Notes under the pieces: generated by a model
Database searches by the model: none
What the model saw: the letters and a program-made list of their open reading frames with translations, nothing else
Told to the model about the DNA's origin: nothing
From: Acidobacteriota bacterium
GTDB lineage: Bacteria; Acidobacteriota; Blastocatellia; Pyrinomonadales; Pyrinomonadaceae
Assembly (NCBI GenBank): GCA_020846885.1
Contig: JADLDC010000204.1
Location: forward strand, 1 to 52,105
Length of the DNA stretch: 52,105 bases
Direction: 5' to 3'
In this document: positions 3,098 through 43,972 of the stretch, one piece after another
How the letters are laid out: each line of letters starts with the position of its first letter
Numbering within the stretch: the stretch's first letter is position 1
Translations under genes and position numbers: made by a program

Positions 3098-3146
3098 TGT
3101 TTTTACTCCTGATTGTCCTCCAAACTGCAAAAACGGCCGCACGTCA

Positions 3147-4628: not shown

Positions 4629-4637
4629 AATTACGAA

Positions 4638-6874: not shown

Positions 6875-6879
6875 TTTTC

Positions 6880-7551: not shown

Positions 7552-7576
7552 TTTTATTTGTTTTCGACAGAAAAAT

Positions 7577-9361: not shown

Positions 9362-9398
9362 ATTCTTTCTCATCCAGCCTATCCCGCTGATATCCCAA

Positions 9399-11192: not shown

Positions 11193-11200
11193 GATCCTCC

Positions 11201-11986: not shown

Positions 11987-11994
11987 AGGCGAGA

Positions 11995-13110: not shown

Positions 13111-13144
13111 AAGCGCCTTCTCCCTCTTTTCTCCACGGCCGTTT

Positions 13145-14266
13145 CTATCGTTTACTATTGCCAAGCAGCGGCCTGATCGCGGGTTCCAATGCATTCGCAT
13201 AAATGGTGTAGCCCAGATCGGTCGGATGAACGCCGTCCAAAGTGCCGTCGCCTTCACCAAACGAATGGCCGCCTTTGAAATAATGAAGGCCCGCGACCCG
13301 GTCTTTTTGCAGCTTATTGAATTGCTGTAAAAACGCCGCATTCTTTTCATTTATCAATTCACGCGCTTCTGTATCCCAGGAGGCGTGTGCAAAGTTGGGA
13401 TGTTCGACCATCAGGATCGGCGTATTCGGACGCGCGGACCTGATCGTTTTAACGAAGTTCACCGTCCGCTGCGTTATTTCCTCCGCGGTCATGTTCGGCA
13501 GACAATCGATGACAAATAGTGCCGGATCGAGTTCGGCAAGCAGGTCCGCCAATTCCGGCTCCATTCTGCACAAACCGGAAAAACCGAGATTTACAACTTC
13601 TCTGTTCAGCCTTCTCCCCAAGATGGAACCGATGTTCATTCCCGCTCGTGATGCTCCGAATCCTTGTATGATCGACGTACCGTAGATGACTATCGGCTTG
13701 CCGGCGGGAGCGGGCACCGGCTTGATAACGGCCTCTTTTGGAATGCCTATCTCAACCCGGTCAACGCCGTTGTAAAGCGGCAGATACAGTCTGAATTCAC
13801 GTTCCGCTTTTGACAGGTTCTGGACAAACGCGGCCTCGGTCACAGGCGGCGTCCCGACCGGGCTTCCCGCGGGCCTGGACATATTCGGCGGTTTGACAGC
13901 CGCCCACGTCCACCTGCCGCCTTCACGTACATAAAGGTCCATTCCGGCAACGCTGGCCGCCGAAAGCACTGGGGTCGAGATACTGGGGTTTCTCAGCTTC
14001 CAGCGAATGTTGATCTGAGCAGCGTCCGTCGAGAATGTCACGTAAAGCCCGGCCGAGTTGATCGAACGCTCCCAAAGTTCCTTGCTCACGGGCTTCTGCG
14101 CCTTTGAAGGCAGCCGGTCAAACGGAGTCTTTGTCTCCGAATTCGGCCAGCCCTTGCCGCCGATTCCAATGTCGGCGGTGTTATGCCACGTCATCTCAAC
14201 AGTCTGCTGAGAGAATGCCTGGACTGACAAGATCGCAATAAAGGTCCAAACTATACAATTCTTCAT
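13145..14266 (-). CDS. Secreted SGNH/GDSL esterase with N-terminal GxDLY domain (copy 1)
   Basis: A 373-aa tandem paralog of 11995-13110. It has a signal peptide ending AFSQ, a GMDLY signature at 108-112, and an SGNH domain with Ser198 in GTSIIQG, LGFSG, DCLPNM and Asp344/His347 in DGVHP. The two copies align without gaps over most of the N-terminal half, so duplication is relatively recent. The normal block III GxND Asn is contributed by PNM in both copies. It follows the SSS transporter by 20 bp in unit 2. Sialate O-acetylesterase-like activity is a reasonable guess, but other esters are equally possible. Confidence 0.87.
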   Translation of the reverse strand: MKNCIVWTFIAILSVQAFSQQTVEMTWHNTADIGIGGKGWPNSETKTPFDRLPSKAQKPVSKELWERSINSAGLYVTFSTDAAQINIRWKLRNPSISTPVLSAASVAGMDLYVREGGRWTWAAVKPPNMSRPAGSPVGTPPVTEAAFVQNLSKAEREFRLYLPLYNGVDRVEIGIPKEAVIKPVPAPAGKPIVIYGTSIIQGFGASRAGMNIGSILGRRLNREVVNLGFSGLCRMEPELADLLAELDPALFVIDCLPNMTAEEITQRTVNFVKTIRSARPNTPILMVEHPNFAHASWDTEARELINEKNAAFLQQFNKLQKDRVAGLHYFKGGHSFGEGDGTLDGVHPTDLGYTIYANALEPAIRPLLGNSKR

Positions 14267-14286
14267 ATCCGAAAGGCCCGGCCTCC

Positions 14287-15783
14287 TTAAACTTCGGCAA
14301 CTTCATTGTCCGCGGCAAGAAAGCTGAACATCACCGCAATCGCAAAGCCAACCAAAAAGGACGCCGGAATGATCCAGGTGAACGAGATGTTCTCTTCTAA
14401 ACCGAAAATTGGTTTACCAAAGGCTATGAAAATACTCGTCATCACCGAAGCGATAAAACCAAGGATCGCCGAAGTTCCGTTCACTCGCCTTATAAGTATG
14501 CCGGCAAGGACGAAAACCGCGAGCGGGCCGACGAACAGGTTTACGAGCCTTCCGCTCAACTCGATCAGATTCCAATTCGTCTCACGCATCCCGAACGTGA
14601 TCGCGACGGCCAGAGCCACACCGAATCCGCTGACCACGATCCCGACGAGGCGTTCAAGTACGAGATCTTTCTTGAACAACGCGACATGACTAAACTGTTT
14701 GGAAAGATCGCTGATCAGAACGCTCGATATCGAATTCATGCCTGAGCTCAAGCCCGACATTGCCGCCGCGAGCAGGCCGGCGATTATTAGCCCCGAAACG
14801 CCGTGCGGCAATTCCTGTACAATGAACTGCGGCATTGCCCGGTCGGCCATTCCCGCGATCGCCGCCTGAAACTCGTCCATCGGAACAGTTGACTTGTGAT
14901 GATAGAACGCGAACAACGCCAGCCCGCAAATGACCAGAAACAATATCGAGGTCAGATTTGAGATCATGAAGACCCACACCGAACGTCGTGCTTCGCGAAG
15001 CGACGGCGTGCTCAAATATCGCTGAACGATCATTTGATCGGAGGTGCTGGTGCATATGAAATAGAACATCACCGACGCCATCTTTCCTACCGTGGTTACC
15101 CGCACGGTAGGATCGGCGCTGAAAGTAATGATCTCCGTTCTGCCGGCCTGCGAGAACGTTTCCCACCATCCGAGCGGCCCGCTGCCGATCGCGTATGCAA
15201 CGTAGATCGGAATTATCAACGCGCATCCTGTAAACAGTGCCGTTTGAATAAAATCGGTCCAGATAACCGACCGCAGCCCGCCCGCCGACGTGTAGAAGGT
15301 GGTGATAACGCCAATGACCGCGATGATCAGGAAAATGTTCAGCCCGGTCACTTCCGAAACCGCGAGACTGGCCGTATAGATTATCGCCCCCATCCAGATC
15401 AGCGTTTTTACGGCAAAAACATATTCGCTGATCTTGGAAATGCGGAGATCAAAACGCTGGGCAAGATAATCGTACGCACTCGTGATCTTGAGCCGCATCA
15501 GTACCGGCAGGACGATGCGATTGATGATCGGAACGACAAGCGGCACAAACGGGTAAACAACAAAGAACCCAAGTCCATACCGGATCATCTCGCCCGGGAT
15601 CGCCATAAAGCTTATGGTCGAAAAAAGCGAAAGGCTTCCGCCGACAAGTATCCAGTGCATGCCGCGGCCGCCAAGAAAAAAATCCTCGCGCGACTTTTGG
15701 CTTTTTGAAAAATACAGCCCGATCAACGACATCGCCGCCAGGTAGGCAATGATCACCGCAATATCGAGCGCATTTAATTGCAT
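14287..15783 (-). CDS. Sodium:solute symporter (SSS family), copy 1
   Basis: A 498-aa integral membrane protein with about 13 predicted helices. The start MQLNALDIAVIIAYLAAM places helix 1 at once, and the family block FFLGGRGMHWILVGGS follows the first loop. SLFSTISFMAIPGE in helix 2 and GLSSGMNSISSVLISD in the helix-8 region correspond to the sodium-binding helices of SSS transporters such as SiaT and vSGLT. The protein is a close paralog of 27722-29251, which has an identical first segment. It is inferred to import the monomer released by the extracytoplasmic enzymes of unit 2. No lipoprotein or binding-protein partner is required for this family. Confidence 0.9.
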   Translation of the reverse strand: MQLNALDIAVIIAYLAAMSLIGLYFSKSQKSREDFFLGGRGMHWILVGGSLSLFSTISFMAIPGEMIRYGLGFFVVYPFVPLVVPIINRIVLPVLMRLKITSAYDYLAQRFDLRISKISEYVFAVKTLIWMGAIIYTASLAVSEVTGLNIFLIIAVIGVITTFYTSAGGLRSVIWTDFIQTALFTGCALIIPIYVAYAIGSGPLGWWETFSQAGRTEIITFSADPTVRVTTVGKMASVMFYFICTSTSDQMIVQRYLSTPSLREARRSVWVFMISNLTSILFLVICGLALFAFYHHKSTVPMDEFQAAIAGMADRAMPQFIVQELPHGVSGLIIAGLLAAAMSGLSSGMNSISSVLISDLSKQFSHVALFKKDLVLERLVGIVVSGFGVALAVAITFGMRETNWNLIELSGRLVNLFVGPLAVFVLAGILIRRVNGTSAILGFIASVMTSIFIAFGKPIFGLEENISFTWIIPASFLVGFAIAVMFSFLAADNEVAEV

Positions 15784-15835
15784 TGGTTAACGGAAACGGC
15801 CCTGTGAGTTTAGATCGGCGAACTGGCGGGGCCGA

Positions 15836-17452
15836 TCACTTTTGATTTTCAGGAACTTCGCTATTCTTTGCCCATATCTGCCACGCTTCAGTCAGCTTCT
15901 TCACCATTTCCGGATGCTTGGCGGAAACATCGTTCGTCTCTGTCCGGTCGGCATCCATGTCGTAGAGTTCCCATTTCTTTGCCGTGACGCCCCAGACGAG
16001 CTTCCACTTCCCGATCCGATACGCCCTTGATCCGTAAAGGAACCAGCCCAACTCGCGCTCCTTCGAAAACTTTCCGCCTTTAAGGACCGGCATCAAACTC
16101 TTGCCTTCGACCGGGATGGTCTTTGCTCCGCCGCGTTCGGCCGGATACTTTGCTCCGGAAACTTCCATAAACGTCGGAAGCAGGTCGATCAAATGTCCTA
16201 TTTCGTTCGTGATCGTGTTCGGCTTTATCTTTTTATTCCATCGAACTATCATCGGCGTCGTCAGGCCGCCTTCGTATGTCCAGGTCTTGTATCGCCGAAA
16301 CGGCGACGATTGAGCGGTCGCCCAACCCGGCCCGCAGAAAACATACGAGTCTTTTGAGCCGAACTTCTTACCTTTATTGTATGCCCGATATTCTGCGTAC
16401 TTCTCGGAGCCCGGCGGTATATCACTTGCACAGCCGCCATTGTCTGAAAAGAAAACAACGATGGTGTCGTCATCTATACCCGTCTCTTTCAAGGCCGCCA
16501 TCACTCGCCCAATGCTCTGGTCCATTCGGTCAACCATTGCCGCATAGACCTCCATCTTTTGGATCTCCCACGCCTTGTCCTCAGCCGAGATCGACTCCCA
16601 AGAATCAACTTTGAGGTCGTAGCGCCAGTTCCCCAGCTTCGGATCAGGATCAGGAAGCCCCCATTTTTCTGAAATTATTCCCAGCTCTACCATCCGCTGA
16701 TGGCGTTTCTTTCTGAGCACATGGTAGCCGTCGTCATATTTCCCGCGATATTTTGCAATGTCCTGCGGCAACGCCTGCATCGGGTAATGCGGTGCAAAAT
16801 GCGCGAGGTGCAGAAAGAACGGTTTTTTAGCTTTGGCAAATTTCCTGATCTGAGCTATTGCATGGTCGGTTATCGCGTCAGTATCGTAATAGTTGTCCGG
16901 AACACTCTTGATAACATCCGCGTTATGCACAAACGGCTGTTTCGGGCCGGCGTGACTAACGAATGGCGGATCGGGCGCCGACGGATCAAAGTGATTTACC
17001 GCACCTATCATCGACCCGTAATATTCGTCAAAGCCGCGGTCGATCGGCCGGGTCGGTTCACCGCCAAGGTGCCATTTGCCGCTCATCGCGGTTGCGTAAC
17101 CGGCGCCCTTTAAAACTTCCGCAACCGTGGCCATGTTCGGCTTCAACAACCCGCCCGGCTTGAATCGCGGGTGCACGCCCGTCAGCATTGCCACGCGGGA
17201 AACATTGCAGACGGCACAATTGAAGAACTGTTTGAACCGCATCCCCTCGGCCGCGATCTTGTCCAAATTTGGAGTAGCGATCTCGCCGCCGTAACAGCCA
17301 AGATCAGCAAACCCCAGATCATCCGCAACGATCATGATGATGTTCGGCGGGCTTTTTTCTTTCGCATCCGCCGAATCGCCCAGGGCCGTCAGTGCCAATG
17401 CTCCGACACCCGAGCCAATAAACGTTCTGCGGTCGATCTTGTTTTTCGTCAT
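15836..17452 (-). CDS. Tat-exported arylsulfatase-family protein with atypical active-site motif
   Basis: A 538-aa alkaline-phosphatase-superfamily sulfatase. A Tat signal (DRRTFIGSG plus hydrophobic stretch) precedes the metal-binding ADDLGFADLGCYGG (Asp44, Asp45). The position normally occupied by the formylglycine motif C-x-P/A-S-R reads Cys82-N-V-S-R followed by VAMLTG, so the proline is replaced by valine. Downstream GKWHLGG, HLAHFAPHYP and FFSDNGG are all conserved, so the fold and most metal ligands are intact. It probably removes sulfate esters from the glycan if the cysteine is still matured. Exported in folded form through Tat, it would have to be matured in the cytoplasm; no formylglycine-generating enzyme is in this window. 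It lies directly after the TonB receptor in unit 2. Confidence 0.9.
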   Translation of the reverse strand: MTKNKIDRRTFIGSGVGALALTALGDSADAKEKSPPNIIMIVADDLGFADLGCYGGEIATPNLDKIAAEGMRFKQFFNCAVCNVSRVAMLTGVHPRFKPGGLLKPNMATVAEVLKGAGYATAMSGKWHLGGEPTRPIDRGFDEYYGSMIGAVNHFDPSAPDPPFVSHAGPKQPFVHNADVIKSVPDNYYDTDAITDHAIAQIRKFAKAKKPFFLHLAHFAPHYPMQALPQDIAKYRGKYDDGYHVLRKKRHQRMVELGIISEKWGLPDPDPKLGNWRYDLKVDSWESISAEDKAWEIQKMEVYAAMVDRMDQSIGRVMAALKETGIDDDTIVVFFSDNGGCASDIPPGSEKYAEYRAYNKGKKFGSKDSYVFCGPGWATAQSSPFRRYKTWTYEGGLTTPMIVRWNKKIKPNTITNEIGHLIDLLPTFMEVSGAKYPAERGGAKTIPVEGKSLMPVLKGGKFSKERELGWFLYGSRAYRIGKWKLVWGVTAKKWELYDMDADRTETNDVSAKHPEMVKKLTEAWQIWAKNSEVPENQK

Positions 17453-17515: not shown

Positions 17516-20500
17516 TTAGAAAAGGAACCTGATACCAAGTTGAACGCTTCGGTTGTCGCGCTGACGCGTGATCATCGCTCCCGACGCATTTGAGACGAAA
17601 TAGTTGAGGCTTGGCCCAAGTAGATTGACTCTATTGAAGGCATTGAATACCTCGCCTCTCAACTGCAGTTTCATTCGCTCGCCGAATTTCACATCCTTGT
17701 GCAAGCCAAAGTCAAAGCTTACGAGGTCCGGGCCCCAAATAATGTTTGGCGGGGCGTTTCCGTTGACGTTCGTGGTCGCGGAATTAACAAAGCAATCATA
17801 ATCAAACCATCGCTCAACGGTTCGTTGATCTGCCGGAAGATTACCGTCGCAGATCCGGTCAGGGGCCCGGCCATTCGCTCCCCTTACACTGAAAGGCTGG
17901 CCGGTTTGGACCGTGGTGATCATATTCATGCGCCATCCGCCAAGAATGGCGTTGACCGTCGGATTCCAATTGTTGCCGAATGTCTTCCCTTTTCCGAACG
18001 GCAGGTCGTACGAACCCGAGAAAGTAAATCGATGCCGAACGTCAAAGTCCGCGTTTGTCCTGATCCTTGTGTACTTGTACGTCCCGGGATTTTCCGGATC
18101 GATCTCGTCCAGATTCTCGTCGATATGATCGTTTGATGCTTCGGCGATCGCATGTGACCATGTATACGCCGCCAGGAAGCTCAACCCATCCTTGAACCGC
18201 TTTGTCATTTTTGCCTGAAGGGCATGGTAGCTGGAATTGAATCCTTTCAAACGAAGGCTCACAACATTACTGCCGCCGCCCGACACCCAGCCTGGATTAT
18301 GGGATGAGATCTTTGCCAACAAGACCGGATCATAACTTCGCATTGATCCCAATCCGTTCAGATTGGTTCCTTTCGATCCGACATAAGAGGTTTCCGCAAC
18401 GACGCCCCATCCGAGTTCTCTTGCTATCCCAAGATTCCAGTGCTGAACGTTCCCGGTCGGGTAGTAGCGCGGATTGAGCCACGTGTTTCCGGGCGATGCG
18501 GGTGCAGTGAGGGGAAGTTCAAATGGCTCCTGGTCCATTGGTATCAAATGATTGATCCGGTCAGGCTGCAGCGAAGCCCTTGTCCGCCAGAGGAATTGGC
18601 TGCTGAACGGGGCGACGAATGAACCGTAACCGGTGGTGTACAGCGTCTCGCTATTGTAAACCATGCCGTATCCACCTCGCACGACAGTTGAATTGCCCTT
18701 GAACAGCCTATAGGCGAATCCGATCCGCGGCCCGAAGTCGAACTTGTTGGCGTCGAACGGTGTATTTGGACCGCCCGTTTCGTAATTGAACTGAAGGTCC
18801 TGCAGCAGCGCCGGGTCTGTTCGCTCCGAATACCATGGCATCCCGGTTTCCCAATTAAGGGTCATGAACTTGCCGTCTTTCGAAGCGAATGGAGGCTCAA
18901 AATCATATCGCAGGCCGAGATTGAGCGTAAGCCGGTCGTTGACCTTCCAGTCATCCTGAAAATATAGGCCGATACTCGTTCGTGTCGATCGGGCATAGGT
19001 AGAATCACCAAAACTATAGTTGGTATAAGATGAGACGCCGGTCAGCAGGTCTGCAAAAGTATGGCCCGCAACTCGATAGTTCAGATTGTTCGCGGCACTT
19101 CCGGTTTCGCTGAACCCAATATAGTAGGCCCCGAACCTTGCGACATCATAAAGCCAGCCATAGTCTTGCGCTTTGATATCCGCACCGAACGAGAACGTGT
19201 GTTCGCCTTGAACATACACCAGGTCCTCGCGCAGGTACCAGGTGTTATTGTCCCGCATATTCGGGCCCTGTACGCCAAGGGTCATAAACCTGTTCCCGAC
19301 TGTATAGAGCTGTACACGCGGAAAGCCCGTGATGTCATCGCCTTTCTCATTCCCCAACCAGAAACCGTATTCCGCGGCGTAGTTCTTGTCCGACTTTGCA
19401 TGCTGATAGCCGTTGTCGCTCCACGTGTAATTGAACTTGGTGTCGCTGACGAGAGTTCGCGTTAACGGTCGGGTATATCCTATGGCTATCGTTTTGCCGT
19501 AGTCGTAATAATTCTGGTCCGCAAATTCCGTTATGCCCGGGATCACATTGTCATACTTTCCGTAATTGTAACTGCCGTTCAGTGTACTTCCGTCTTTGAA
19601 GTTGTGATCGAGTTTGATCAGATACTTGTCTGTGGTCCTGTTGCCGCTCTTGAAAACCCGCAAATTGAAGATCGGGTCGTTGAAATTCGGTTCGGGAATA
19701 AGGTCCATCAATCGTACACCTAGCGGATTGATAATATTTGAAGGAAGGATCTTGCTCGGGATCACGACCTGCTGGCAGTGTTGGGCCGAAGTTGGCGGCG
19801 TGGTTTGGGTCGGCGGAAGGACCAACGGCAGGTTCGGGTTCGGACAGGTGGCGGTAACTGTGTACTGGAACGGATTTACAATAACGACCGGTTGGCCGCT
19901 GGCACTATATGGGTTCAGCGTCTGACTGAAGTTCCCCGTACGTTCAAGTGCGGTCGGCGCAAAGCCTTCGATAAACTGGCCCGGCTTTTTCTGCCGATAA
20001 AATTCGGCACTAAAGAAAAAGAAAGTGCTGTTTTTGATGATCGGGCCGCCGATCGTCCCGCCAAATTGATTCTGAATATAGCTTGGGCTGTCCTCGCGGG
20101 TTCCGGTATAGAAATAAGGAAGAGCGTCCAGGGTCTTGTCTCTATGAAATTCGTAGAGCGATCCGCTGAACTTATTCGTTCCGGATTTTGTTACAACACT
20201 TATGACGCCGCCGCCCGCTCGTCCGTATCGTGCCGAATAAAGGCTTGTTTCAACCCGAAATTCTTTGACGGCGTCGAGCGCCGGAGACGAGACCAATTGG
20301 CCGAAATAGCTGTCGGTAGAGTCAGCCCCATCGACGTAGTATGAGTTGTCTCTCGATCTTGCCCCGCCAAAACTTGCCGAAACGCCCTTGCTGTCGATCG
20401 CACCGGTCTTTCCGCTTCCGGTCGAAACTCCCGGAACAAGGCCCGAGAGTTCGATGAACTCACGCCCGTTGAGCGGCATGTTCTCGATGATCCTTTCGTT

Positions 20501-20914
20501 GATGACCTCGCCCAGAGTCGGATTCTCGGTGTTGACCCCTCGATTCGCATCGTCGGTGACTATCACCTCTTCGCTCACCGACCCGACCTCCAATTGAATG
20601 TCTTCCCGGTGCAGTTGGTTGACATTGACCGTCGATTGCAGGATCTCGGACCGCCTAAAGCCGGCGGCTTCGGCCAGGATCCGATAATTTCCGGGTTGAA
20701 GAAAATCAAACCTGTAATTCCCGTCCGAATCGGTCGTAGTATTCCGACGGACACCCGTGGCGTTATTGGTGATCGTTACCGCTACAGAAGGCACAACCAG
20801 TCCGTTCGGATCTTTCACGGTGCCGACAACGGCTCCCTGATTGGCAGTTTGCGCAATACAAACGCCTGCGGCAACAAATACGATTAGGATCAGTTGGCCC
20901 ACTAACTTTTTCAT
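17516..20914 (-). CDS. Oar-like TonB-dependent outer-membrane receptor
   Basis: The 1132-aa product has a Sec signal peptide (MKKLVGQLILIVFVAAGVCIAQ). A carboxypeptidase-regulatory-like beta-sandwich (~28-95, with VGTVKDPNG, SDGNYRF and LQPGNYRI) is followed by a plug domain (~130-300, with NMPLNGREF, YYVDGADST and SVVTKSGTN) and a large beta-barrel ending VQLGIRFLF with the terminal Phe usual for outer-membrane proteins. No SusD partner is encoded, as is typical of Acidobacteriota. It would import an oligosaccharide or released sugar acid for the periplasmic enzymes and SSS symporters. The start at 20914 has AGGAG 7-11 nt upstream; a longer ORF to 21097 would delete the regulatory leader. 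It is the first gene of unit 2. Confidence 0.92.
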   Translation of the reverse strand: MKKLVGQLILIVFVAAGVCIAQTANQGAVVGTVKDPNGLVVPSVAVTITNNATGVRRNTTTDSDGNYRFDFLQPGNYRILAEAAGFRRSEILQSTVNVNQLHREDIQLEVGSVSEEVIVTDDANRGVNTENPTLGEVINERIIENMPLNGREFIELSGLVPGVSTGSGKTGAIDSKGVSASFGGARSRDNSYYVDGADSTDSYFGQLVSSPALDAVKEFRVETSLYSARYGRAGGGVISVVTKSGTNKFSGSLYEFHRDKTLDALPYFYTGTREDSPSYIQNQFGGTIGGPIIKNSTFFFFSAEFYRQKKPGQFIEGFAPTALERTGNFSQTLNPYSASGQPVVIVNPFQYTVTATCPNPNLPLVLPPTQTTPPTSAQHCQQVVIPSKILPSNIINPLGVRLMDLIPEPNFNDPIFNLRVFKSGNRTTDKYLIKLDHNFKDGSTLNGSYNYGKYDNVIPGITEFADQNYYDYGKTIAIGYTRPLTRTLVSDTKFNYTWSDNGYQHAKSDKNYAAEYGFWLGNEKGDDITGFPRVQLYTVGNRFMTLGVQGPNMRDNNTWYLREDLVYVQGEHTFSFGADIKAQDYGWLYDVARFGAYYIGFSETGSAANNLNYRVAGHTFADLLTGVSSYTNYSFGDSTYARSTRTSIGLYFQDDWKVNDRLTLNLGLRYDFEPPFASKDGKFMTLNWETGMPWYSERTDPALLQDLQFNYETGGPNTPFDANKFDFGPRIGFAYRLFKGNSTVVRGGYGMVYNSETLYTTGYGSFVAPFSSQFLWRTRASLQPDRINHLIPMDQEPFELPLTAPASPGNTWLNPRYYPTGNVQHWNLGIARELGWGVVAETSYVGSKGTNLNGLGSMRSYDPVLLAKISSHNPGWVSGGGSNVVSLRLKGFNSSYHALQAKMTKRFKDGLSFLAAYTWSHAIAEASNDHIDENLDEIDPENPGTYKYTRIRTNADFDVRHRFTFSGSYDLPFGKGKTFGNNWNPTVNAILGGWRMNMITTVQTGQPFSVRGANGRAPDRICDGNLPADQRTVERWFDYDCFVNSATTNVNGNAPPNIIWGPDLVSFDFGLHKDVKFGERMKLQLRGEVFNAFNRVNLLGPSLNYFVSNASGAMITRQRDNRSVQLGIRFLF

Positions 20915-21094
20915 GGCTGTTTTCTCCTGAGAATCTGGAAAGATTTTAAAATACCGCTTGTACTCTTGTCTTGATCGCCTTGGGTTCAAATAGTGCCGAC
21001 AGTGAGTGATCTTAAGGGCAATTACACCTTTCCTGCCACCGTTCGAACTGCCTATTGGGGAGCGATCAAAGAGATCAAAAATTGAGAGGGATAC

Positions 21095-21106
21095 CACGCT
21101 ACCGCC
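21095..21106 (-). promoter_or_regulatory. ops-like element (GGCGGTAGCGTG) before the TonB receptor
   Basis: On the minus strand 21106-21095 reads GGCGGTAGCGTG, identical to the 12-nt operon polarity suppressor that recruits RfaH in enterobacteria. It lies in the untranslated leader about 180 nt before the TonB receptor start and about 140 nt after the inferred transcription start. The regulon encodes its own NusG paralog at 39312-39830, so this is a candidate recruitment site for that protein. Identity is seen directly; the function is inference. Confidence 0.6.
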
Positions 21107-21122
21107 ATCTCGTTCGAGTTTT

Positions 21123-21143
21123 ATGCCGGTCTATGTCCGGCAT
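21123..21143 (-). promoter_or_regulatory. Leader hairpin upstream of the unit-2 ops element
   Basis: On the minus strand ATGCCGG, loop ACATAGA, CCGGCAT forms a perfect 7-bp stem with a 7-nt loop. No T-run follows, so it is not an ordinary terminator. It ends 16 nt before the ops-like element. A hairpin of the same stem and loop length precedes the ops in leader 1 (39284-39304). Confidence 0.5.
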
Positions 21144-21253
21144 CTCGATCGACGGCTGTCTGGCGAAAACTGTGATCACCTTGGAATATGATCCGTCGAT
21201 GAACTGAGTCTGGCGTTACAGCTTTCGGGGCGACAAGATACGGTTACAAATTG

Positions 21254-21282
21254 AACTTAAGATAGTTCCTCTTCTATGTAAA
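21254..21282 (-). promoter_or_regulatory. Candidate promoter of unit 2
   Basis: TTTACA at 21282-21277 (5/6 of the -35 consensus) and TAAGTT at 21259-21254 (weak -10) are 17 bp apart. They occupy exactly the positions, relative to the shared palindrome, that TTTATT and TATAAT occupy in front of the NusG paralog. The weak boxes suggest dependence on an activator. Confidence 0.35.
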
Positions 21283-21326
21283 TAGCTTTTTGGCCCGATC
21301 GGCGGGTTTGGTTCAGTCGGCTGAAC
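21280..21326 (-). promoter_or_regulatory. Shared operator module B: GTTCAG-N4-CTGAAC plus AAATAGCTTTTT block
   Basis: The palindrome GTTCAG-TCGG-CTGAAC occupies 21311-21326 and AAATAGCTTTTT occupies 21280-21291. The distance between their left edges is 31 bp, exactly as in module A (39932-39978). With the candidate promoter at 21254-21282 the palindrome would be centred near -71. The likely ligand is a dimeric regulator; the IclR protein encoded at 40047-40880 is the best candidate. Confidence 0.65.
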
Positions 21327-21343
21327 AGCGGGAGAATCTATTC

Positions 21344-22336
21344 CTAAACTTCCTGCCAAGCATTTTTTTCGATCGATCTTATCAATGCGTCCGCGACCCG
21401 CAGCGCGTTGATTCCGTCATCGACCGTTACCTTACATTCGATATCTGAGTTGATCACGTCCAGAAAATGCTCTATTTGTTTGAGCATCATTGAATCGAAA
21501 GTTTCGGCGATGTCGTAAACCCGTTCAAAATCGTCCTCATATTTCTGCAAGGTGATCGATGTTTTTGTCGCATTGATCGTGAGAACGCCTTCGTCGCCGA
21601 TCATCGTGAAAGCTCTGGTTCCGGGAGACAATATATAGTCTAGATGTGCCGTGCCCGAGACGCCGGATTCCATATCGAAAAGTGCATTCACAACATTCGG
21701 TGACTGTTTCTTTTCACGATTTCCCGATGTGTGACTTATTCCGACGACTCTCTTTACTTTGCCGAGAAACCATTGCAGGTAGTCCCATTCATGGCTGTAA
21801 TCGACAAACAGCTTGTTGATCTCAGTCTGGCTGAAGCGGTTCTTTGCCGCAACCAGGGTGTTGTACGAGCCGAGCAAGATTTGAAACGAGACGATCTCGC
21901 CGATAATGCCGCGATCGACCATTTCCTTTGCCTTCAAGAAAACAGAGTTGTGACGAAGCGGATAGCCGACCAATACCTTTGCTTTTGCTTCTTTGATGGT
22001 TGTGATCAAACTATCGCACTGTGTGACATTCTCGGCGATCGGCTTTTCGATCAATACCGCGGCACCTTTGCGACATGCCTGTTCGGCCTGAGAAATATGA
22101 AATTGATCCGGGGCCGCGATAATAAGTCCGTCAAGGCCATATTCGAGCAGCCGGTCGAAAGAATCCGTGGACGCGGCAACACCAGGCAATTCCATTGCGG
22201 CTTTGCGGTGTGATTCGACCGGATCCGCGACATAGATATCCACCCCGCCCCGCTGCGACAACAGCCGTGTATGCCTAAAGCCGATCGAGCCAATGCCGGA
22301 GACACCGATCCGAAGGCGTTTACTATTTTCCGACAT
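21344..22336 (-). CDS. Gfo/Idh/MocA-family oxidoreductase
   Basis: A 330-aa cytoplasmic NAD(P)-dependent oxidoreductase. The Rossmann loop GVSGIGSIGFRH (about 12-23), the GLIIAAPDQFH strand, and the family signature EKPIAENV with its Lys are visible; the C-terminal alpha/beta domain contains FVDYSHEWDYLQWFLG. Members oxidise or reduce sugars, inositols and sugar acids at one hydroxyl, so it likely handles the imported sugar or its lactone. It is the last gene of unit 1; its stop lies only 18 bp from the operator palindrome of unit 2. The ATG is 12 bp after the SGNH gene stop. Confidence 0.88.
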   Translation of the reverse strand: MSENSKRLRIGVSGIGSIGFRHTRLLSQRGGVDIYVADPVESHRKAAMELPGVAASTDSFDRLLEYGLDGLIIAAPDQFHISQAEQACRKGAAVLIEKPIAENVTQCDSLITTIKEAKAKVLVGYPLRHNSVFLKAKEMVDRGIIGEIVSFQILLGSYNTLVAAKNRFSQTEINKLFVDYSHEWDYLQWFLGKVKRVVGISHTSGNREKKQSPNVVNALFDMESGVSGTAHLDYILSPGTRAFTMIGDEGVLTINATKTSITLQKYEDDFERVYDIAETFDSMMLKQIEHFLDVINSDIECKVTVDDGINALRVADALIRSIEKNAWQEV

Positions 22337-22348
22337 AATGTTTAGACG

Positions 22349-23095
22349 TTATGGAACAAAGGATCTGCAAACCGGACTCTTTTCATCAAAGACCCCAAGG
22401 TCATCGAACATCTTTTTCGCAAGGAACAAATGACCGTAAGCATTCGGGTGAATGCTGCCGTCGTTCAGTAACATTTGCAGCCTGCCCGCTGTTCCGATCT
22501 CTTTTTGCCAGTGAGCATAATGATCGACCAACGGAAGTTTGTGTTTGATCGCAACCTCACGGATCGTTTCTACATAGCCCGGAAGGCCCGCACGCTCTTT
22601 AGCACTTGGAAAATGGATCAGATTGGGCGTGTGCAAAAGAAGCATTGCCTGTCGCTGCTTGGTTTTTTCGACTAACTTTTCTAGAGAATCCTTGAAGCCT
22701 TTTCGCCCTGCCTCTCCGTTTCGGCAATCGTTCATTCCCATCTTGAGCGAGACCACTTTCGGCTTAAATTGAAATATTCGCCATTCGTCCCGGCCCAAAA
22801 GGCCCGTCATGGTGTCGCCGCTGATTCCGGTGTTGATGACAATATCGGCCATACGCCGCAATTCCCATCGCACCCTTTCGGCAAAATGTTCAACGTAGCT
22901 TCGATGGCCAAATGTATGAAGGGCGCCGTGTGTGATGCTGTCGCCGGTAAAGACCCAAACGGCCGGCTCGCCGCCTTTCAGTAAGGCCTTTAATTCTTTA
23001 AATGCGTCGTCTTCCGTTCTGATGACATTACCCATCGCTGTGTTGGCCGCGATCGCCGCGGCCCCGGCTGATGCAATGAATCCTCTTCTGTTCAT
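22349..23095 (-). CDS. Exported SGNH/GDSL hydrolase
   Basis: A 248-aa esterase-like protein. The N-terminus MNRRGFIASAGAAAIAAN has the twin arginines and hydrophobic stretch of a Tat signal. SGNH blocks are Ser in FTGDSITHG, Gly in NTGISGDT, Asn in GMNDC, and Asp/His in DGSIHPNAYG. It belongs to a compact SGNH subfamily without the GxDLY domain, so it is not a close paralog of the pair in unit 2. It probably deacylates the glycan or an oligosaccharide in the periplasm. It lies between the RidA-like and Gfo/Idh genes in unit 1. Confidence 0.86.
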   Translation of the reverse strand: MNRRGFIASAGAAAIAANTAMGNVIRTEDDAFKELKALLKGGEPAVWVFTGDSITHGALHTFGHRSYVEHFAERVRWELRRMADIVINTGISGDTMTGLLGRDEWRIFQFKPKVVSLKMGMNDCRNGEAGRKGFKDSLEKLVEKTKQRQAMLLLHTPNLIHFPSAKERAGLPGYVETIREVAIKHKLPLVDHYAHWQKEIGTAGRLQMLLNDGSIHPNAYGHLFLAKKMFDDLGVFDEKSPVCRSFVP

Positions 23096-23127
23096 TGTTT
23101 TGCTCGCTCTATTATCGCAGTCAAAAG

Positions 23128-23523
23128 TTATTTCTGTTCTCGATCAAGATGGTGCATGGTCAGTTGTGCTACGCAGTCTATCTCAAACAAAAGTGTGGGC
23201 GGCAAGCAGTTCGTTATCGTCGTTCTTGACGGAAACGGTTCAGAGAAAACTTCTCTGTAAAGCCGGTTAAACTCCGGCAGGTCCTCGTCGCGTCTCACAA
23301 AACAACCGACCTTTACGATGTCCGCAAGTGTCGCTCCACCAGCCGCGAGGATCGTCCGCAGATTGTCAATGGACCGTTCAAACTCGTCGGCGAATGTCCC
23401 CGCGATTATCTCGCCGGTTTTCAGATCAACAGACGCCTGGCCCGACACGAACAGCAGATCGCCAACACACATCGCGTGCGAGAACGGCAGCTTGAGATCG
23501 CCGAGTATTATCGGTTTCTTCAT
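23128..23523 (-). CDS. ridA: RidA-family enamine/imine deaminase
   Basis: A 131-aa YjgF/YER057c/UK114 protein. The conserved Arg that binds the carboxylate of 2-iminoacids is in PSRTTI, and the strand DLLFVSGQASVDLKTGEI and the helix ERSIDNLRTILAAGGATLADIV match the family. RidA hydrolyses reactive enamine/imine intermediates released by PLP dehydratases to 2-oxoacids. Its presence with the threonine-synthase-like PLP enzyme and aminotransferase of unit 2 suggests that an amino-acid-type intermediate is deaminated in this pathway (inference). It is encoded 7 bp after the glycerate kinase. Confidence 0.88.
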   Translation of the reverse strand: MKKPIILGDLKLPFSHAMCVGDLLFVSGQASVDLKTGEIIAGTFADEFERSIDNLRTILAAGGATLADIVKVGCFVRRDEDLPEFNRLYREVFSEPFPSRTTITNCLPPTLLFEIDCVAQLTMHHLDREQK

Positions 23524-23530
23524 AATTATA

Positions 23531-24856
23531 TTATGCGGCCAACACTATGCGAATGTCCCTTACGTTGGTTCCGGTCGGGCCGGTCTCAATGGCCGCGTCG
23601 AGTTTCTTTAGAAACGTGAAGCTGTCGCTTTCTTCAAGATATCGTGCGGGATCAAGGCCCTGTTCCCGGGCGGACTTGATCGTTGTTACATCGACCACTC
23701 CGCCCGCCGCCGGGCTGTTCCCGTCAATGCCGTCAGTGCCCGCACTTAGTATTGTGAAATTTCGCAATTCGTCGTTTTCTTCGGCGAGCATTCCGGCACG
23801 CAGCACCGTTTCACAGTTTCGTCCTCCGATACCGCTTCCCCGGACCTCGCAGCCGAACTCTCCGCCAGATACAAAGCATGCCGGCTTGCCTTTTGGAACG
23901 GAGTTTTTGAACGCGAGGGCCCGATCCAAAAGGCCTGACGTTCCATCCCCGATCATCTCGTCGTGATCGTCATCGTCGAACGCCGTTTCAAATCCAATTC
24001 CATTAGCAATTTTGGCTGCATGGCTGACCATCTGCCGATTGTCGAGCAAAACGTGAAAACGGCTGTCTATCGTCACGTCATGATGCACGCTTTCTCGTTC
24101 CCTGATCGATCGGGTGACGATTTCGGGTAACCGACCTTCGAGCCGGTATTTCTCTACGATCTCGATCGGGTCCGGAATTCCCGCACCCGGCAATAAACTT
24201 GGGCCTGATGCAACCGAGGTAATGTCGCCGGACCGTGTATCGGAAACGATTAGGCTGATCTGCTGCGAGTCGGCCGCGCTCAGCGCCAAACCGCCGCCCT
24301 TTACCGCCGAAACAGCCCGTCTCACAGAGTTTATCTCGGTGATCGAGGCACCCGATGTGACAAGTGCCCGGTTTAGCTCTCTTAGATCAGTCAAAGTGAG
24401 CCGAGGATCCCGAGGCAGCTCCATCATTGCCGAACCGCCGCCCGAGACCAGAAACACGACCGCGGCCTTTTCACGATTTGCCCGATCAAGCATCAAAAGG
24501 CAAGCCTTTGCCGCCTCGAAACTTTCTTCGCTGGGCAGCGGGTGCCCGCCAAAGAATTTCTGCCATGCCGAACCTTTCAGGCTAGTTCCGCGGGTCGGAT
24601 CAGCACCCGAAACGACTCCCGCTTTGATATTTTTCCCTGCAGCACGATCAAACGCTTCCGCCATCGGGTACGCAGCCTTGCCGACCGCAACGACATAAAT
24701 TGGCTGCGAAAGCGAAATGGCCGGTTCGCCGAATATCAAGAGGTCTGTGCCATCGGCCCGCAAAGCGTTTTGCACCGCGGCACCGGCATCAACACGTTTC
24801 AGTGCTTCGCTAAATATCGTCCTTGCCGCAAAGGTCAGCTCTTGATTTCGCCCCAT
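23531..24856 (-). CDS. Glycerate 2-kinase, GckA/TtuD (MOFRL) type
   Basis: A 441-aa two-domain kinase. The N-terminal DUF4147 domain carries VAVGKAA, GGHPLP and the glycine-rich FLVSGGGSAMMELP. The C-terminal MOFRL domain carries FVSGGEFGCEVRGSGIGGRNCE and ILSAGTDGIDGNSPAAGG. The family phosphorylates D-glycerate to 2-phosphoglycerate and is the usual last step after tartronate-semialdehyde reductase or hydroxypyruvate reductase. This fits the HIBADH-like (35440-36342) and hydroxypyruvate-isomerase-like (36342-37157) proteins of the same unit, and points to glycerate as the entry into lower glycolysis. Confidence 0.9.
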   Translation of the reverse strand: MGRNQELTFAARTIFSEALKRVDAGAAVQNALRADGTDLLIFGEPAISLSQPIYVVAVGKAAYPMAEAFDRAAGKNIKAGVVSGADPTRGTSLKGSAWQKFFGGHPLPSEESFEAAKACLLMLDRANREKAAVVFLVSGGGSAMMELPRDPRLTLTDLRELNRALVTSGASITEINSVRRAVSAVKGGGLALSAADSQQISLIVSDTRSGDITSVASGPSLLPGAGIPDPIEIVEKYRLEGRLPEIVTRSIRERESVHHDVTIDSRFHVLLDNRQMVSHAAKIANGIGFETAFDDDDHDEMIGDGTSGLLDRALAFKNSVPKGKPACFVSGGEFGCEVRGSGIGGRNCETVLRAGMLAEENDELRNFTILSAGTDGIDGNSPAAGGVVDVTTIKSAREQGLDPARYLEESDSFTFLKKLDAAIETGPTGTNVRDIRIVLAA

Positions 24857-25588
24857 CTAAATTCCAAGCTTTAGTTTTTTTATCTCTTTGATCAGCAGTT
24901 CGGCCTCGATCCGATGCCCTTCGCTGTTTGGGTGCATTCCATCAGTGAACAGTTCGTCCATAGATCGGCCGGTCTCTTTGCCGTAGCGATGGTAAACAGA
25001 AAAAAGATCGATGACCGGGACCCGATTCTTTTTGCCGATCGACTTCAAGGCCGCGACGTAATCCTTCTTCATAAAATTAAATCCATCCGGATCGGCCGGG
25101 TCGTATGGCGGCTTTCCATACATCCCGCGCAATTTCTCGGTCCATCGCGTCGGCAGCGGCGTAACGAGAATGACTTTCACATTCCCGGCTCGGAGTGTCG
25201 TGATCATTTCACTGAGATTTTTGACATAGTCCGCCAACGGAACCCGCGGGCCGGTTGCGGGCGGGTCTTTCCAAACATCCACTGCCGAATCATTATTGCC
25301 GAACTGAATGATGACAAGGTCCGGAGATTTGGCAAGCACGTCCTTCTCGAAACGCTTTTTGGCGTGGTCCGTAGTGTTTCCGCCGATACCCGCGTTTATC
25401 ACTTCTACATTCTTACCCGAAAACGTTTCCCGCAGAACATCTGAATAAGTCACAACGCCCTTGCGCGGAGCAGTGATCGAGTCGCCAAATGAAACTATCG
25501 TCAGCTTCTTCGATTCGGCCGACTGTGAAAATGCGGCCAGCCCCATGGCCATTACAATGATCAGAACGCCGATCATATTTGTTTTCAT
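24857..25588 (-). CDS. Secreted SGNH/GDSL hydrolase
   Basis: A 243-aa protein with a Sec signal peptide (MIGVLIIVMAMGLAAFSQS). SGNH blocks are Ser in FGDSITAP, Gly in NAGIGGNT, Asn in QFGNNDS, and Asp/His in DGMHPNSEGH. It resembles the rhamnogalacturonan-acetylesterase/TAP-like branch. The start at 25588 is preferred over an upstream in-frame start at 25618 because GGAG lies 9 nt before it and the signal peptide begins there. It is the fourth SGNH enzyme of the regulon, so heavy O-acylation of the substrate is suggested. It lies in unit 1 between the Zn-alcohol dehydrogenase and glycerate kinase genes. Confidence 0.86.
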   Translation of the reverse strand: MKTNMIGVLIIVMAMGLAAFSQSAESKKLTIVSFGDSITAPRKGVVTYSDVLRETFSGKNVEVINAGIGGNTTDHAKKRFEKDVLAKSPDLVIIQFGNNDSAVDVWKDPPATGPRVPLADYVKNLSEMITTLRAGNVKVILVTPLPTRWTEKLRGMYGKPPYDPADPDGFNFMKKDYVAALKSIGKKNRVPVIDLFSVYHRYGKETGRSMDELFTDGMHPNSEGHRIEAELLIKEIKKLKLGI

Positions 25589-25623
25589 CGTTACGATCTC
25601 CAGAAAATGGTCCGGCAATTGTT

Positions 25624-26751
25624 CTAAAATTCGATGACCTGACGAACCGCTTTTCCCTCGGCCAAACGGTCAAACCCAACATTGATCTCATCTAATCTTA
25701 TAGTATGGGTCCGAAGCCTCTCGATCGGCAGCATTCCTTTCAGATGCATTTCTATGTACGTTGGTATGTCGCGGCTCGGTAGGCAAGAACCCATATATGA
25801 ACCTTTAACCGTCCGTTCTTCCGCAACAAGGCTGAAGGCCGGAATAGTGAACATCTTTTCCGGATGCGGCAGGCCCGCTGTGATCGTCGTGCCGCCGCGT
25901 CTGGTTGCCTGATACGACTGGATCAGCACCTGTTCGCTGCCCACACCCTCGAATACATGGTCGGCACCACCAGATGTGATCTGTTTGACGGCCTCGACCG
26001 CATCAACCTCCGATGCATTTACGGTGTGCGTGGCCCCGACTTGCCGGGCGAGTTCCAGCTTGTCGTCGAGCCGGTCAACCGCGATGATCGGAAATGCCTT
26101 TGCATAGCTTGCGCCTATCACCATACTGAGGCCCACGCCGCCGAGACCGAAAACGGCCACCGACTCTTCGGCTTCGACCTTCGCAGTATTCAAAACTGCG
26201 CCAACTCCGGTCAGCACCGCGCACCCGAACAGGGCCGCGATGTCCAATTGCAATGACTTGTCGATCTTTACAAGTGATTCTCGAGCGACGACGGTAAGTT
26301 CCGAAAATGCAGAAACGCCCAAATGGTGATTGATCGCTGATCCCGGATCTGAAAAATGCCTGGCCCCCGAAAGCAGTGTTCCGGCGACGTTCGCTTTTGC
26401 TCCGGGCTCGCATAACGCGGCCCGTCCCTGAAGGCAGTACGAGCAGGTTCCGCATACCGGCACAAAGCTGAAGATCACATGATCGCCGGGAACAAGGTCC
26501 TTGACCGCTGTGCCTACTTCACGAACGACACCGCTCGCCTCGTGGCCGAGGACCATCGGCATCACCCGCGGCCTTGAGCCGTCAATTACCGAAAGGTCGG
26601 AATGACAAAGCCCGGCGGCCGCAAGTTCAACCAGGACCTCGCTTTCGCCCGGCCCGGCAAGCGTAATTTCCTCTACACGCAGCGGCGTACTTTCCGCATA
26701 AGGGAAAGGCCTTCCCATTTCTGTTAATACTGCAGCTTTGGTTTTCATCAT
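25624..26751 (-). CDS. Zinc-dependent alcohol dehydrogenase (MDR superfamily)
   Basis: A 375-aa medium-chain dehydrogenase. The catalytic zinc site is Cys49, His70-Glu71 (GHEASG), the structural zinc site is Cys100/103/106/114, and the NAD-binding loop is FGLGGVGLS. It resembles the class III-like/aryl-alcohol branch rather than sorbitol dehydrogenases. Its substrate in this locus is unknown; an aldehyde or secondary alcohol produced during side-chain removal is plausible. The start overlaps the Kelch gene stop by 4 bp (ATGA), so translation is coupled. It is part of unit 1. Confidence 0.9.
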   Translation of the reverse strand: MMKTKAAVLTEMGRPFPYAESTPLRVEEITLAGPGESEVLVELAAAGLCHSDLSVIDGSRPRVMPMVLGHEASGVVREVGTAVKDLVPGDHVIFSFVPVCGTCSYCLQGRAALCEPGAKANVAGTLLSGARHFSDPGSAINHHLGVSAFSELTVVARESLVKIDKSLQLDIAALFGCAVLTGVGAVLNTAKVEAEESVAVFGLGGVGLSMVIGASYAKAFPIIAVDRLDDKLELARQVGATHTVNASEVDAVEAVKQITSGGADHVFEGVGSEQVLIQSYQATRRGGTTITAGLPHPEKMFTIPAFSLVAEERTVKGSYMGSCLPSRDIPTYIEMHLKGMLPIERLRTHTIRLDEINVGFDRLAEGKAVRQVIEF

Positions 26752-27725
26752 TTCTGTTCGTGCCTCACATGGCCGATCACAATTCCCTTGAAACGCGAGG
26801 CGAGTTTGTCTTCGCCTGATGCCCCGTAAAATGTGCCGTCAGCAAAGATGAATTTCGTGTCCATTAGCGGCTGTGGAAGTTTCGAGATCAATTCATACTT
26901 ATCCGACTTCGGAGAGTATCGATAGACCGTATCGAGGCCGGCTTCTGAGTAACCGCCGAGAAGATATACAAACTTGCCGTCCGCTCCGGCCCAAAACGCA
27001 CGCATCGCGATGGGCATCTTCTTAATGCCGGTCCAGGTATTTGTCTTCGTGCTGAATCGATATGCATCATCCAGATTGCGGGGCGTTTCGCCCGCCTTCT
27101 GTGTTATTCCTCCGAACACGTATATGTCAGTGCCGACAGCGGCCGCGGAAAAGATCTGCCGCGGCCCGCCGGGAATGTCCGGCCCGCTGCTCCATTTGTT
27201 CGCTCTCGTGTCGTATATCCAAACATCCTTTGCGGCGGTCGTCACATCGGCCGGGTTAGAAGACCCTCCAAAAACATAGATCTTTCCCCCGACGGTTGCG
27301 TATGCCGGGAAAATAAATGCCGCGGGCGATTCACCTATCTTGTCCCAGCTTCCTTTTCGCAGCCGATAGACATCCGTGTTCGCCAGTCCATTGCCGTCAA
27401 CGCCGCCAAGCAGAAAAATGTCCTTCCCTATCATGGCGGTCACGCCGTATCCGAAGGCTTTGGGCAGCGGTTTACCGGCCGACCATTTATTCAATTTTGG
27501 ATCATAAAAACTTGCCTCATTGGTCCAGAGTTTTTTTCCGTCTTTCCAATAACTCCCGCCCGCAAGCCACAGGCCGCCATTCTGCCAGGCCGCAAAATAG
27601 CCGCCTCTCGGCAGCGGAATGTCTTCGCCGCGTTTCCATTCGATACTCATTTGTTCGCCCGTCGTCTGACCCAAGCACATTCCGAAATTACATAAAAGTA
27701 AGATCAGGAGCCCGACACTTTTCAT
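26748..27725 (-). CDS. Secreted Kelch-repeat protein, NanM-like mutarotase
   Basis: A 325-aa protein with a Sec signal peptide (MKSVGLLILLLCNFGMCLGQ). Kelch blades can be read as repeated GG-x5-6-W-type units: LWLAGGSYW, IFLLGGVDG, IYVFGGSSN, IYVFGGITQ and VYLLGGYSE. This predicts a six-bladed propeller. N-acetylneuraminate mutarotase NanM has this fold and location, and the gene overlaps an SSS transporter gene by 4 bp exactly as mutarotases often accompany sialic-acid SSS symporters. It probably converts the anomer of the released acid sugar before uptake (inference); another acidic sugar is possible. Confidence 0.85.
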   Translation of the reverse strand: MKSVGLLILLLCNFGMCLGQTTGEQMSIEWKRGEDIPLPRGGYFAAWQNGGLWLAGGSYWKDGKKLWTNEASFYDPKLNKWSAGKPLPKAFGYGVTAMIGKDIFLLGGVDGNGLANTDVYRLRKGSWDKIGESPAAFIFPAYATVGGKIYVFGGSSNPADVTTAAKDVWIYDTRANKWSSGPDIPGGPRQIFSAAAVGTDIYVFGGITQKAGETPRNLDDAYRFSTKTNTWTGIKKMPIAMRAFWAGADGKFVYLLGGYSEAGLDTVYRYSPKSDKYELISKLPQPLMDTKFIFADGTFYGASGEDKLASRFKGIVIGHVRHEQK

Positions 27726-29251
27726 AAACGACCTCCCAGATCTTCATCCCGGCCCAAAACCGGTGCGTCGGCCCCGCGTCCCAGAAAGAGGCTGACAATT
27801 GCCGTCACGCCAAAACCGACAATGAACGAGACCGGGATTATCCAAATGAAGGAAAGCTGCTGCTTGACGCCAAAGATCTGTTGGCTAAATCCGATATAAA
27901 GGCTTGTGAGAACTGATGCCGCAAATCCGATAAGTACAGAGATAGCGTTCGATCGTCTTAACAGCATTCCTGCAAAAAAAAGAATCGCGAGCGGCCCGAC
28001 GAACAGATTTACGACGCGGCCGCTAAGCTCCACCAGATTCCATGTCGAACGCTCCATTCCGAGAGTGAATCCGATAGCGAGCAGAACACCAGCGCCGCCC
28101 ATCACGATGCCGATAAGCCGTTCGACGACCAGCGGTTTTTGGAAAAAGCTGATCCAGGTTTTCTTTGGCTGGATCTTGGTGATCAATACGCTGGATATCG
28201 CATTCATTCCCGAGCTAAGGCCCGACATTGCGGCGGCGAGCAGTCCCGCAACTATCAGCCCGGCGATACCGTGCGGCAGTTCTGCGACGACGAATTGGAT
28301 CATTGTTCTGTCCGCTGTTGCCGCGATCTGCTGTTGAAACTCATCGATGGGCAGCGATGACCTATACCTGTAGAAGGCAAACAAAGAGAGTCCGCAGATC
28401 GCAAGAAATACAACCGAGGCCAGATTCGAGACAATGTAAACCCAAACACTGCGGCGGGCCGCCTGCAGCGATGGCGTGCTCAGATATCGCTGAACGATCA
28501 TCTGGTCAGATGAACTTACGCAAACAAAATAGAAGAAGACCGATGCCATGTTGCCCACGGTCGTCATCCGGACGGTCGGGTCAAGACTAAAAGTTGTTAT
28601 CTCGGTTCGGCCGGCCTGCGAAAAAGAATCCCACCAGCCGAACGGCCCAACGCCGGTCGCATACATTACGTACATCGGTATCACAAGTGCGCAGCCCGTA
28701 AACAGCATTGTCTGGATAAAGTCGGTCCAGATCACCGACTGAAGGCCGCCAGCGGAGGTATAAAAGGTAGTAATGATCCCGATGACGGCAATTATGAAAA
28801 ATATGTTCCAGCCGGTAACTTGTGCTACCGCAAGGCTTGCGGTATAGATTATTGCCCCCATCCACAGCAGGGTCTTAAGTACAAAGGTATATTCGGAAAC
28901 TCTCGTTACACTGATATCGAAACGCTTGTCCAGATAGTCGTATGCGCTGCTGATAGGGAGGCTCATTATGATCGGCAGCACGATCCTGTTGATCACGGGA
29001 ACTATAAACGGAACGATCAAATAAGCCACAAAAAAGCCAAGTCCGTATCGGATCATCTCGCCGGGCACGGCCATAAAGCTGATGGTCGAGAATAGCGACA
29101 GGCTTCCGCCGACAAGGATCCAGTGCATCCCGCGGCCGCCTAGAAAAAAGTCCGTTCTGGAATCGAGTTTTCGCGAGAAATATAGCCCGATAAGAGACAT
29201 CGCTGCCATATACCCAACGACAACCGCAATATCAAGCGCGTTAAGCTGCAT
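27722..29251 (-). CDS. Sodium:solute symporter (SSS family), copy 2
   Basis: A 509-aa membrane protein closely paralogous to 14287-15783. Both begin MQLNALDIAV and share FFLGGRGMHWILVGGS, SLFSTISFMA, VIWTDFIQT and GLSSGMNAISSVLI almost unchanged. The C-terminal tail after the last helix is unique (GRGADAPVLGRDEDLG). The family couples sodium to the import of sugars, sialic acids or carboxylates. The gene overlaps the Kelch mutarotase gene by 4 bp, suggesting that mutarotation and uptake are coupled. Having one copy in each long unit suggests two related substrates or anomers (inference). Confidence 0.9.
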   Translation of the reverse strand: MQLNALDIAVVVGYMAAMSLIGLYFSRKLDSRTDFFLGGRGMHWILVGGSLSLFSTISFMAVPGEMIRYGLGFFVAYLIVPFIVPVINRIVLPIIMSLPISSAYDYLDKRFDISVTRVSEYTFVLKTLLWMGAIIYTASLAVAQVTGWNIFFIIAVIGIITTFYTSAGGLQSVIWTDFIQTMLFTGCALVIPMYVMYATGVGPFGWWDSFSQAGRTEITTFSLDPTVRMTTVGNMASVFFYFVCVSSSDQMIVQRYLSTPSLQAARRSVWVYIVSNLASVVFLAICGLSLFAFYRYRSSLPIDEFQQQIAATADRTMIQFVVAELPHGIAGLIVAGLLAAAMSGLSSGMNAISSVLITKIQPKKTWISFFQKPLVVERLIGIVMGGAGVLLAIGFTLGMERSTWNLVELSGRVVNLFVGPLAILFFAGMLLRRSNAISVLIGFAASVLTSLYIGFSQQIFGVKQQLSFIWIIPVSFIVGFGVTAIVSLFLGRGADAPVLGRDEDLGGRL

Positions 29252-29274
29252 AATTAGTTTTTAGAAAGTGAGAT

Positions 29275-30264: not shown

Positions 30265-30281
30265 TATCAAAGCCGTGATCT

Positions 30282-33090: not shown

Positions 33091-33104
33091 AAATTCGTTA
33101 CTCC

Positions 33105-34651: not shown

Positions 34652-34685
34652 TGCTGATGTTCCGCGCCCTAATGTTCAAGCCGCT

Positions 34686-37157: not shown

Positions 37158-37178
37158 GATCGGCTGGGGGACTCGCGG

Positions 37179-41695: not shown

Positions 41696-41776
41696 AGTCG
41701 GATATTACCTTCTCCGACCGGCCAATCCAAATCGCGGGCAGACCGGCAGCAGCTCACAGGCCGCCGGAACAGCACC

Positions 41777-43942: not shown

Positions 43943-43972
43943 AATTATCGCTCCATTAAGATAAGCGGCGTA

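Follow-up and report, generated by a model that had tools for sequence, protein, structure and literature searches.

The best described counterpart of the locus studied here is RfaH of Escherichia coli, the only protein of its kind whose recruitment is known in detail (PMC7593976; see also PMC7819879). About 95% of RfaH proteins are found in Proteobacteria, and how other specialised NusG proteins are recruited has been called unknown (PMC7593976, PMC7819879). The ops element is defined as a 12-nt sequence, GGCGGTAGnnTG, on the non-template strand of an operon leader. In E. coli its non-template bases form a C3:G8 hairpin, in which RfaH contacts G5 and receives the flipped base T6 in a pocket made mainly of H20, R23, Q24 and R73, while T11-G12 gives the pause and bases 3–8 are dispensable for pausing (PMC5995543). 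A class of monomorphic beta-RfaH homologues acting near their genes has been proposed in a 2026 preprint (PMC13015549). In the literature searched, to which most subscription papers did not belong, ops elements were not reported for the phyla considered below, nor was an ops-type element for UpxY (Bacteroides) or LoaP (Bacillus), two specialised NusG proteins that are encoded together with their target operons, as is the paralog described here.

In the window (the whole stretch of 52,105 nucleotides that was analysed), the sequence GGCGGTAGCGTG at positions 21095..21106 of the minus strand, which is the sense strand of the TonB-receptor gene 17516..20914, matches ops at 12 of 12 positions and is a real feature. 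It lies about 140 nt past the predicted transcription start, in an untranslated leader of 429 bp (20915..21343, minus strand) delimited by the end of the upstream gene at 21344 and the ATG at 20914; sequence identity, strand and leader length are all as given in the initial annotation. A second ops-like element, GGCGGTAGTGCG (39213..39224, minus strand), is located between a nusG paralog and the first catabolic gene. Both are thus ops-like elements on the sense strand of a leader, the one before the TonB-receptor gene being exact and the one on the nusG side deviating by CG instead of TG at positions 11–12, and the bases recognised by RfaH (the C3:G8 pair, G5 and T6) are present at both sites. 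Pausing of RNA polymerase (RNAP) at position 11 is predicted, as the sequence fits the consensus pause.

The 8-mer core GGCGGTAG occurs twice in the window (21099–21106 and 39217–39224), both times on the sense strand and once in each leader of the nusG-paralog regulon. The earlier remark that the core was noticed only in the two long leaders holds within the window but not for the genome, where pattern searches, from which all genome-wide counts derive, returned 69 copies in 3.47 Mb, 67 of them elsewhere. Part of this background is explained by a repeat array (G000:C53:4638-4709) with four copies in alternating orientation within 72 nt. At the genome rate 0.0065 copies would be expected in the 652 nt of the two leaders, giving P(>=2) = 2e-5, a value that is qualified by the core having been picked after it had been seen. 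The argument that a chance match is unlikely stands in this form, with two cores in 652 nt, and not for the 12-mer itself, which has two copies in the genome. The other copy (C220/L002) lies on a contig without a NusG-domain gene, so that the rarity of the 12-mer by itself proves nothing; with two genome copies and common background cores, the 12-mer count was dropped as evidence, and the weight rests on the position and conservation of the element.

The NusG paralog, which had been placed 18 kb upstream, was found at 39312..39830 (minus strand) and codes for 172 aa with an NGN domain and a KOW-type C-terminal domain (Pfam NusG, 1.8e-12). It is distinct from housekeeping NusG and is followed by an 18-kb run of genes on the same strand, as is characteristic of specialised NusG proteins. 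Among the NusG-family models of NCBIfam, RfaH was the best match with 98.2 bits, below the equivalog cut-off of 144.5 bits (TIGR01955), and the protein is therefore not classed as RfaH; the UpxY and LoaP models scored 69 and 66 bits, setting it apart from these two proteins, and the nusG model 47 bits, far under its own cut-off. RfaH was also the best sequence match in the PDB, and the N-terminal domain predicted by AlphaFold superimposed on ops-bound RfaH (8pen_P) with a TM score of 0.86 at 1.7 A. As in E. coli RfaH, F51-P52, F56 and T72-R73-G74-V75 are kept in the NGN domain. The DNA-reading surface is partially retained, with T72 and R73 kept, K10 replaced by R and H20 by Y. Of the autoinhibition contacts, I93 and F130 are kept and E48 is replaced by T, and the C-terminal domain is predicted as beta by AlphaFold2 with low confidence (pLDDT about 51–71). 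The last two features differ from E. coli RfaH and suggest that specificity may not work as it does there; they are shared with the monomorphic beta-RfaH homologues, as is the position of the gene beside its target operon, but the locus differs from these homologues in its clear ops-like elements, one of which stands behind a second promoter 18 kb away (PMC13015549). We describe the paralog as a specialised, RfaH-like NusG that is accompanied by an ops-type site.

The TonB-receptor-like outer membrane protein (1132 aa, CarboxypepD_reg and OMP_b-brl_4 domains) is encoded by the first gene of the second of two units, with a Shine-Dalgarno-like AGGAG and a signal peptide at its ATG. A predicted promoter, TTTACA-17-TAAGTT (21254..21282, minus strand), precedes this unit, and another, TTTATT-17-TATAAT (39906..39934, minus strand), precedes the nusG unit. 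Upstream of them lie two matching palindromes, GTTCAGCCGACTGAAC (21311..21326), a candidate IclR-type operator, and TGTTCAGCnnGCTGAACA (39962..39979), a candidate shared operator. An IclR-family regulator (40047..40880, plus strand; Pfam IclR_C 3.4e-47) is encoded divergently and adjoins the nusG promoter. The first catabolic unit after nusG (21344..39089, minus strand) codes for GHL10-like, TIM-barrel isomerase-type, 3-hydroxyisobutyrate-type dehydrogenase, SDR and DHDPS-family proteins, an SSF transporter, kelch and MOFRL/DUF4147 proteins, GDSL esterases and GFO/IDH/MocA proteins. The remainder of the second unit (1760..17452, minus strand), whose membership in the operon is suggested by the shared strand and small gaps, codes for a sulfatase, an SSF transporter, GDSL/GxDLY esterases, BNR-repeat proteins, RraA-like and M81 peptidase-like proteins and a class III aminotransferase. 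Judged by their predicted products, the two units probably form a cluster for sugar or glycan uptake and catabolism. Local duplications were seen at 7577–15783 and 27722–29251 (two SSF transporters, two GDSL/GxDLY esterases and two BNR-repeat proteins). A separate neighbouring cluster (41012–48891) contains a Crp-like regulator, a SLAC1 channel, a 4Fe-4S protein and a molybdopterin oxidoreductase. The locus resembles the E. coli RfaH/ops system in the identical 12-nt element, its leader position and the long operons as targets; it differs in belonging to Acidobacteriota, in that the paralog is encoded inside its regulon and not by a free-standing gene, and in that the targets are catabolic and TonB-receptor genes and not envelope or virulence operons.

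Among 41 genomes of the genus, the paralog is kept in three, namely the window's own, G084 (95%) and G067 (61%), and close receptor homologues were found in the same three. The whole cluster is sporadic (L064-L066 and L090), which points to transfer or repeated loss. The element precedes the orthologous TonB receptors in all of these paralog-keeping species, the outcome on which the initial annotation had made its proposal depend: all four leaders from the three species carry GGCGGYAGCNTG, 163–180 nt past the start of the -35 box, G067 having two tandem TonB receptors. The individual elements read GGCGGTAGCGTG, GGCGGTAGCTTG, GGCGGTAGCCTG and GGCGGCAGCCTG, within the conserved leader forms GAGATGGCGGTAGCGTGG, GAGATGGCGGTAGCTTGG, CGAAATGGCGGTAGCCTG and CGAAATGGCGGCAGCCTG, and the nusG-side leaders carry GGCGGTAGTGCG in the window's genome and G084 and GGCGGCAGTCTG in G067. 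C3, G5 and G8 are kept in all orthologous elements, and position 6 is T or C, a departure from E. coli ops. Since orthologues vary at positions 6 and 10, and in the nusG-side element also at 9–11, the identity to the enterobacterial ops element, which is complete in the window, is partly luck. Comparison of G067 with the other two species shows much lower conservation in the remainder of the upstream leader. The TTTACA box is retained in G084 and in both G067 leaders. In G084 the palindromes are found again ahead of both nusG and the TonB gene; in G067 they stand ahead of nusG and of one TonB gene, and the leader of its other TonB gene has a diverged version. A long open reading frame starting from a GTG inside the element (21097) was rejected as the true receptor start, because the signal peptide and AGGAG sit at the ATG at 20914 and the G084 leader contains indels.

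Outside the genus, a first set of 80 loci of related paralogs from Acidobacteriota, Nitrospirota, Verrucomicrobiota and other phyla carried GGCGGYAGYNYG in sense orientation in 20 loci and never in antisense orientation within -500/+600 of the paralog gene, at about 10 times the distal sense rate, whereas the control GGCGGRAG, with a purine at position 6, was found three times in sense and 10 times in antisense. The pattern was then fixed before it was applied to new loci (60 from Acidobacteriota and 72 from Nitrospirota). In the 72 independent Nitrospirota loci, 52 sense and no antisense copies were present (control, 4 and 5), which brings the strand bias over both sets (80 + 72 loci) to 72:0. 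The clustering with NusG-paralog genes that had been anticipated was hence seen for RfaH-like paralogs in other phyla. It did not extend to most Acidobacteriota paralogs outside this family: in the 60 Acidobacteriota loci of other families the motif was essentially absent (two sense, one antisense), k-mer comparison of these loci revealed no shared substitute motif, and the extension to all Acidobacteriota paralogs was rejected. The sites lie at a median of 134 nt behind the paralog gene, fewer of them before it, mostly by 15–92 nt. All of them keep G2, C3, G5, G8 and Y11-G12, in part because the search pattern demands these bases, with T or C at position 6; among 71 non-redundant sites, columns outside the pattern were conserved as well (ACCGGAAT-GGCGGYAGCYTG-YC). 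In a Nitrospirota clade (L439, L441, L417, L425, L427, L428, L432 and L443) the element stands 73–89 nt before the paralog gene, a nearly fixed spacing suggesting control of the paralog's own transcription. In the single Nitrospirota locus examined individually (L118) it is upstream of an O-antigen-type operon, and in the acidobacterial locus L136, beside the window's clade in the tree, a further run of TonB-receptor catabolic genes follows the paralog and element. The TonB-receptor-like gene of L136 (3868-7284) is split over two reading frames that match halves of one Pfam domain, possibly by a frameshift or a sequencing error.

Other members of the window's family carry a sister form, TGCGGTAGCTNTRYC. 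In 119 genomes it has 20 sites, of which 15 lie no more than 2.4 kb from a paralog gene; it was present in 11 of 18 genomes with the paralog and 3 of 101 without (P = 9e-9). Sites far from a detected paralog (G039:C24:852, G039:C64:6790, G025:C260:5740, G054:C283:905 and G085:C241:2101) are possibly further targets in trans or chance occurrences. The sister element TGCGGTAGCTYTRYC (L067:1371, L071:1718, L075:1453, L076:8312, L078:10443, L080:1474 and L081:1398) has GGTA-GCTC-TACC-like complementarity with G-U variants and might fold into a small hairpin as well, as RNA or as DNA.

The variation at base 6 could be related to the protein. Base 6 was associated with residue 73 more strongly than with any other column of the N-terminal domain (P = 2e-6), R73 being present in 45 of 49 T6 loci and 8 of 22 C6 loci, and two more columns from the binding pocket, H20 and Q24, were also among the top 15. 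On independent tree branches, four starred pairs in all, the association was not significant; supported independent branches were too few for covariation to be proven. The strict prediction that T6 requires R73 did not hold at 4 of the 41 validation sites, which had non-R residues. As a sequence association, the relation of residue 73 to base 6 fits direct reading.

These data support an ops-like interpretation of the element, and we consider it highly probable that each of the two leaders contains a signal of the ops type, at which RNAP pauses and the regulon's own RfaH-like NusG paralog is recruited. The strongest competing explanation, which we regard as unlikely, is that the paralog works in cis without sequence-specific recruitment and that the motif is a strong consensus pause giving a non-specific factor time. 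The predicted beta C-terminal domain, the loss of E48 and the gene's position next to its targets agree with it, and the consensus pause features G2 and YG at 11–12 suffice for pausing (PMC5995543, PMC13015549). Yet GGCGGRAG does not replace GGCGGYAG in the loci, although E. coli pausing needs none of bases 3–8, and the second unit, with its own promoter and leader, would need to be reached in trans. We give far less credence to an action of the element as RNA, through a leader structure or as protein-binding RNA. The element is transcribed and strand-specific, and LoaP, of the same superfamily, binds RNA; however, neither the two leaders nor the sequence separating them gave an Rfam match, the conserved part is a linear block of 20 nt with no conserved pairing in its flanks, and this block fits the requirements of the ops DNA hairpin base by base. 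Least probable of all is that the match arose by chance or that the motif, for instance as a regulator site, has nothing to do with the paralog, since the 67 other core copies, the second 12-mer copy and the similar background counts of TGGCGGYAGYNTG in genus members without the paralog are outweighed by the orthologous conservation of the element, the 72:0 strand bias with positional conservation and the link between the sister form and the presence of the paralog.

For the preferred reading, recruitment of the paralog at both leaders, we propose the following mechanism, in which pausing, loading and antitermination are modelled on RfaH. The IclR-family regulator would control both promoters through the shared palindrome, and the nusG paralog, as the product of the first cistron in the first unit, would be made first. 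RNAP in either leader would pause at GGCGGYAGnnYG (G at -10, Y at -1, G at +1), and the exposed non-template bases 3–8 would fold into a hairpin of one base pair, C3:G8, presenting bases 5 and 6, which the N-terminal domain of the paralog would bind by its RfaH-like surface (the K/R10, T72 and R73 equivalents). The paralog would then stay on RNAP, exclude NusG/Rho and suppress Rho-type polarity, so that RNAP could be carried through units of about 18 and 19 kb, the element in the receptor leader allowing the paralog to act on the receptor unit as well, which lies 18 kb away and has a promoter of its own. This mechanism is supported by the retained positions, which are those RfaH needs (the C3:G8 pair, the G5 and base 6 contacts, and TG at 11–12).

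More broadly, we see about an even chance that RfaH-like paralogs of at least three phyla, Acidobacteriota, Nitrospirota and Verrucomicrobiota, have in common a probably ancient way of being recruited, by reading an ops-type non-template hairpin, that this mode exists there in paralogs encoded in their regulons and often lacking the E48 contact, that acidobacterial TonB-receptor catabolic regulons have adopted it, and that residue 73 reads base 6 by a code pairing T with R and C with N, T, Q or H. If this is true, ops reading by paralogs that often lack the E48 contact would make sequence-specific loading independent of the fold switch of RfaH. As the pairing of motif and paralog recurs in several other phyla, transcription steering of this type appears far more widespread than described; the ops-like element beside dozens of paralog genes in these phyla offers a testable target for each, links residues of the binding pocket to bases and bears on whether DNA reading preceded autoinhibition and fold switching. 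In the acidobacterium studied here, antitermination of this type would act on genes for nutrient uptake, and not on those for capsules, LPS or toxins.
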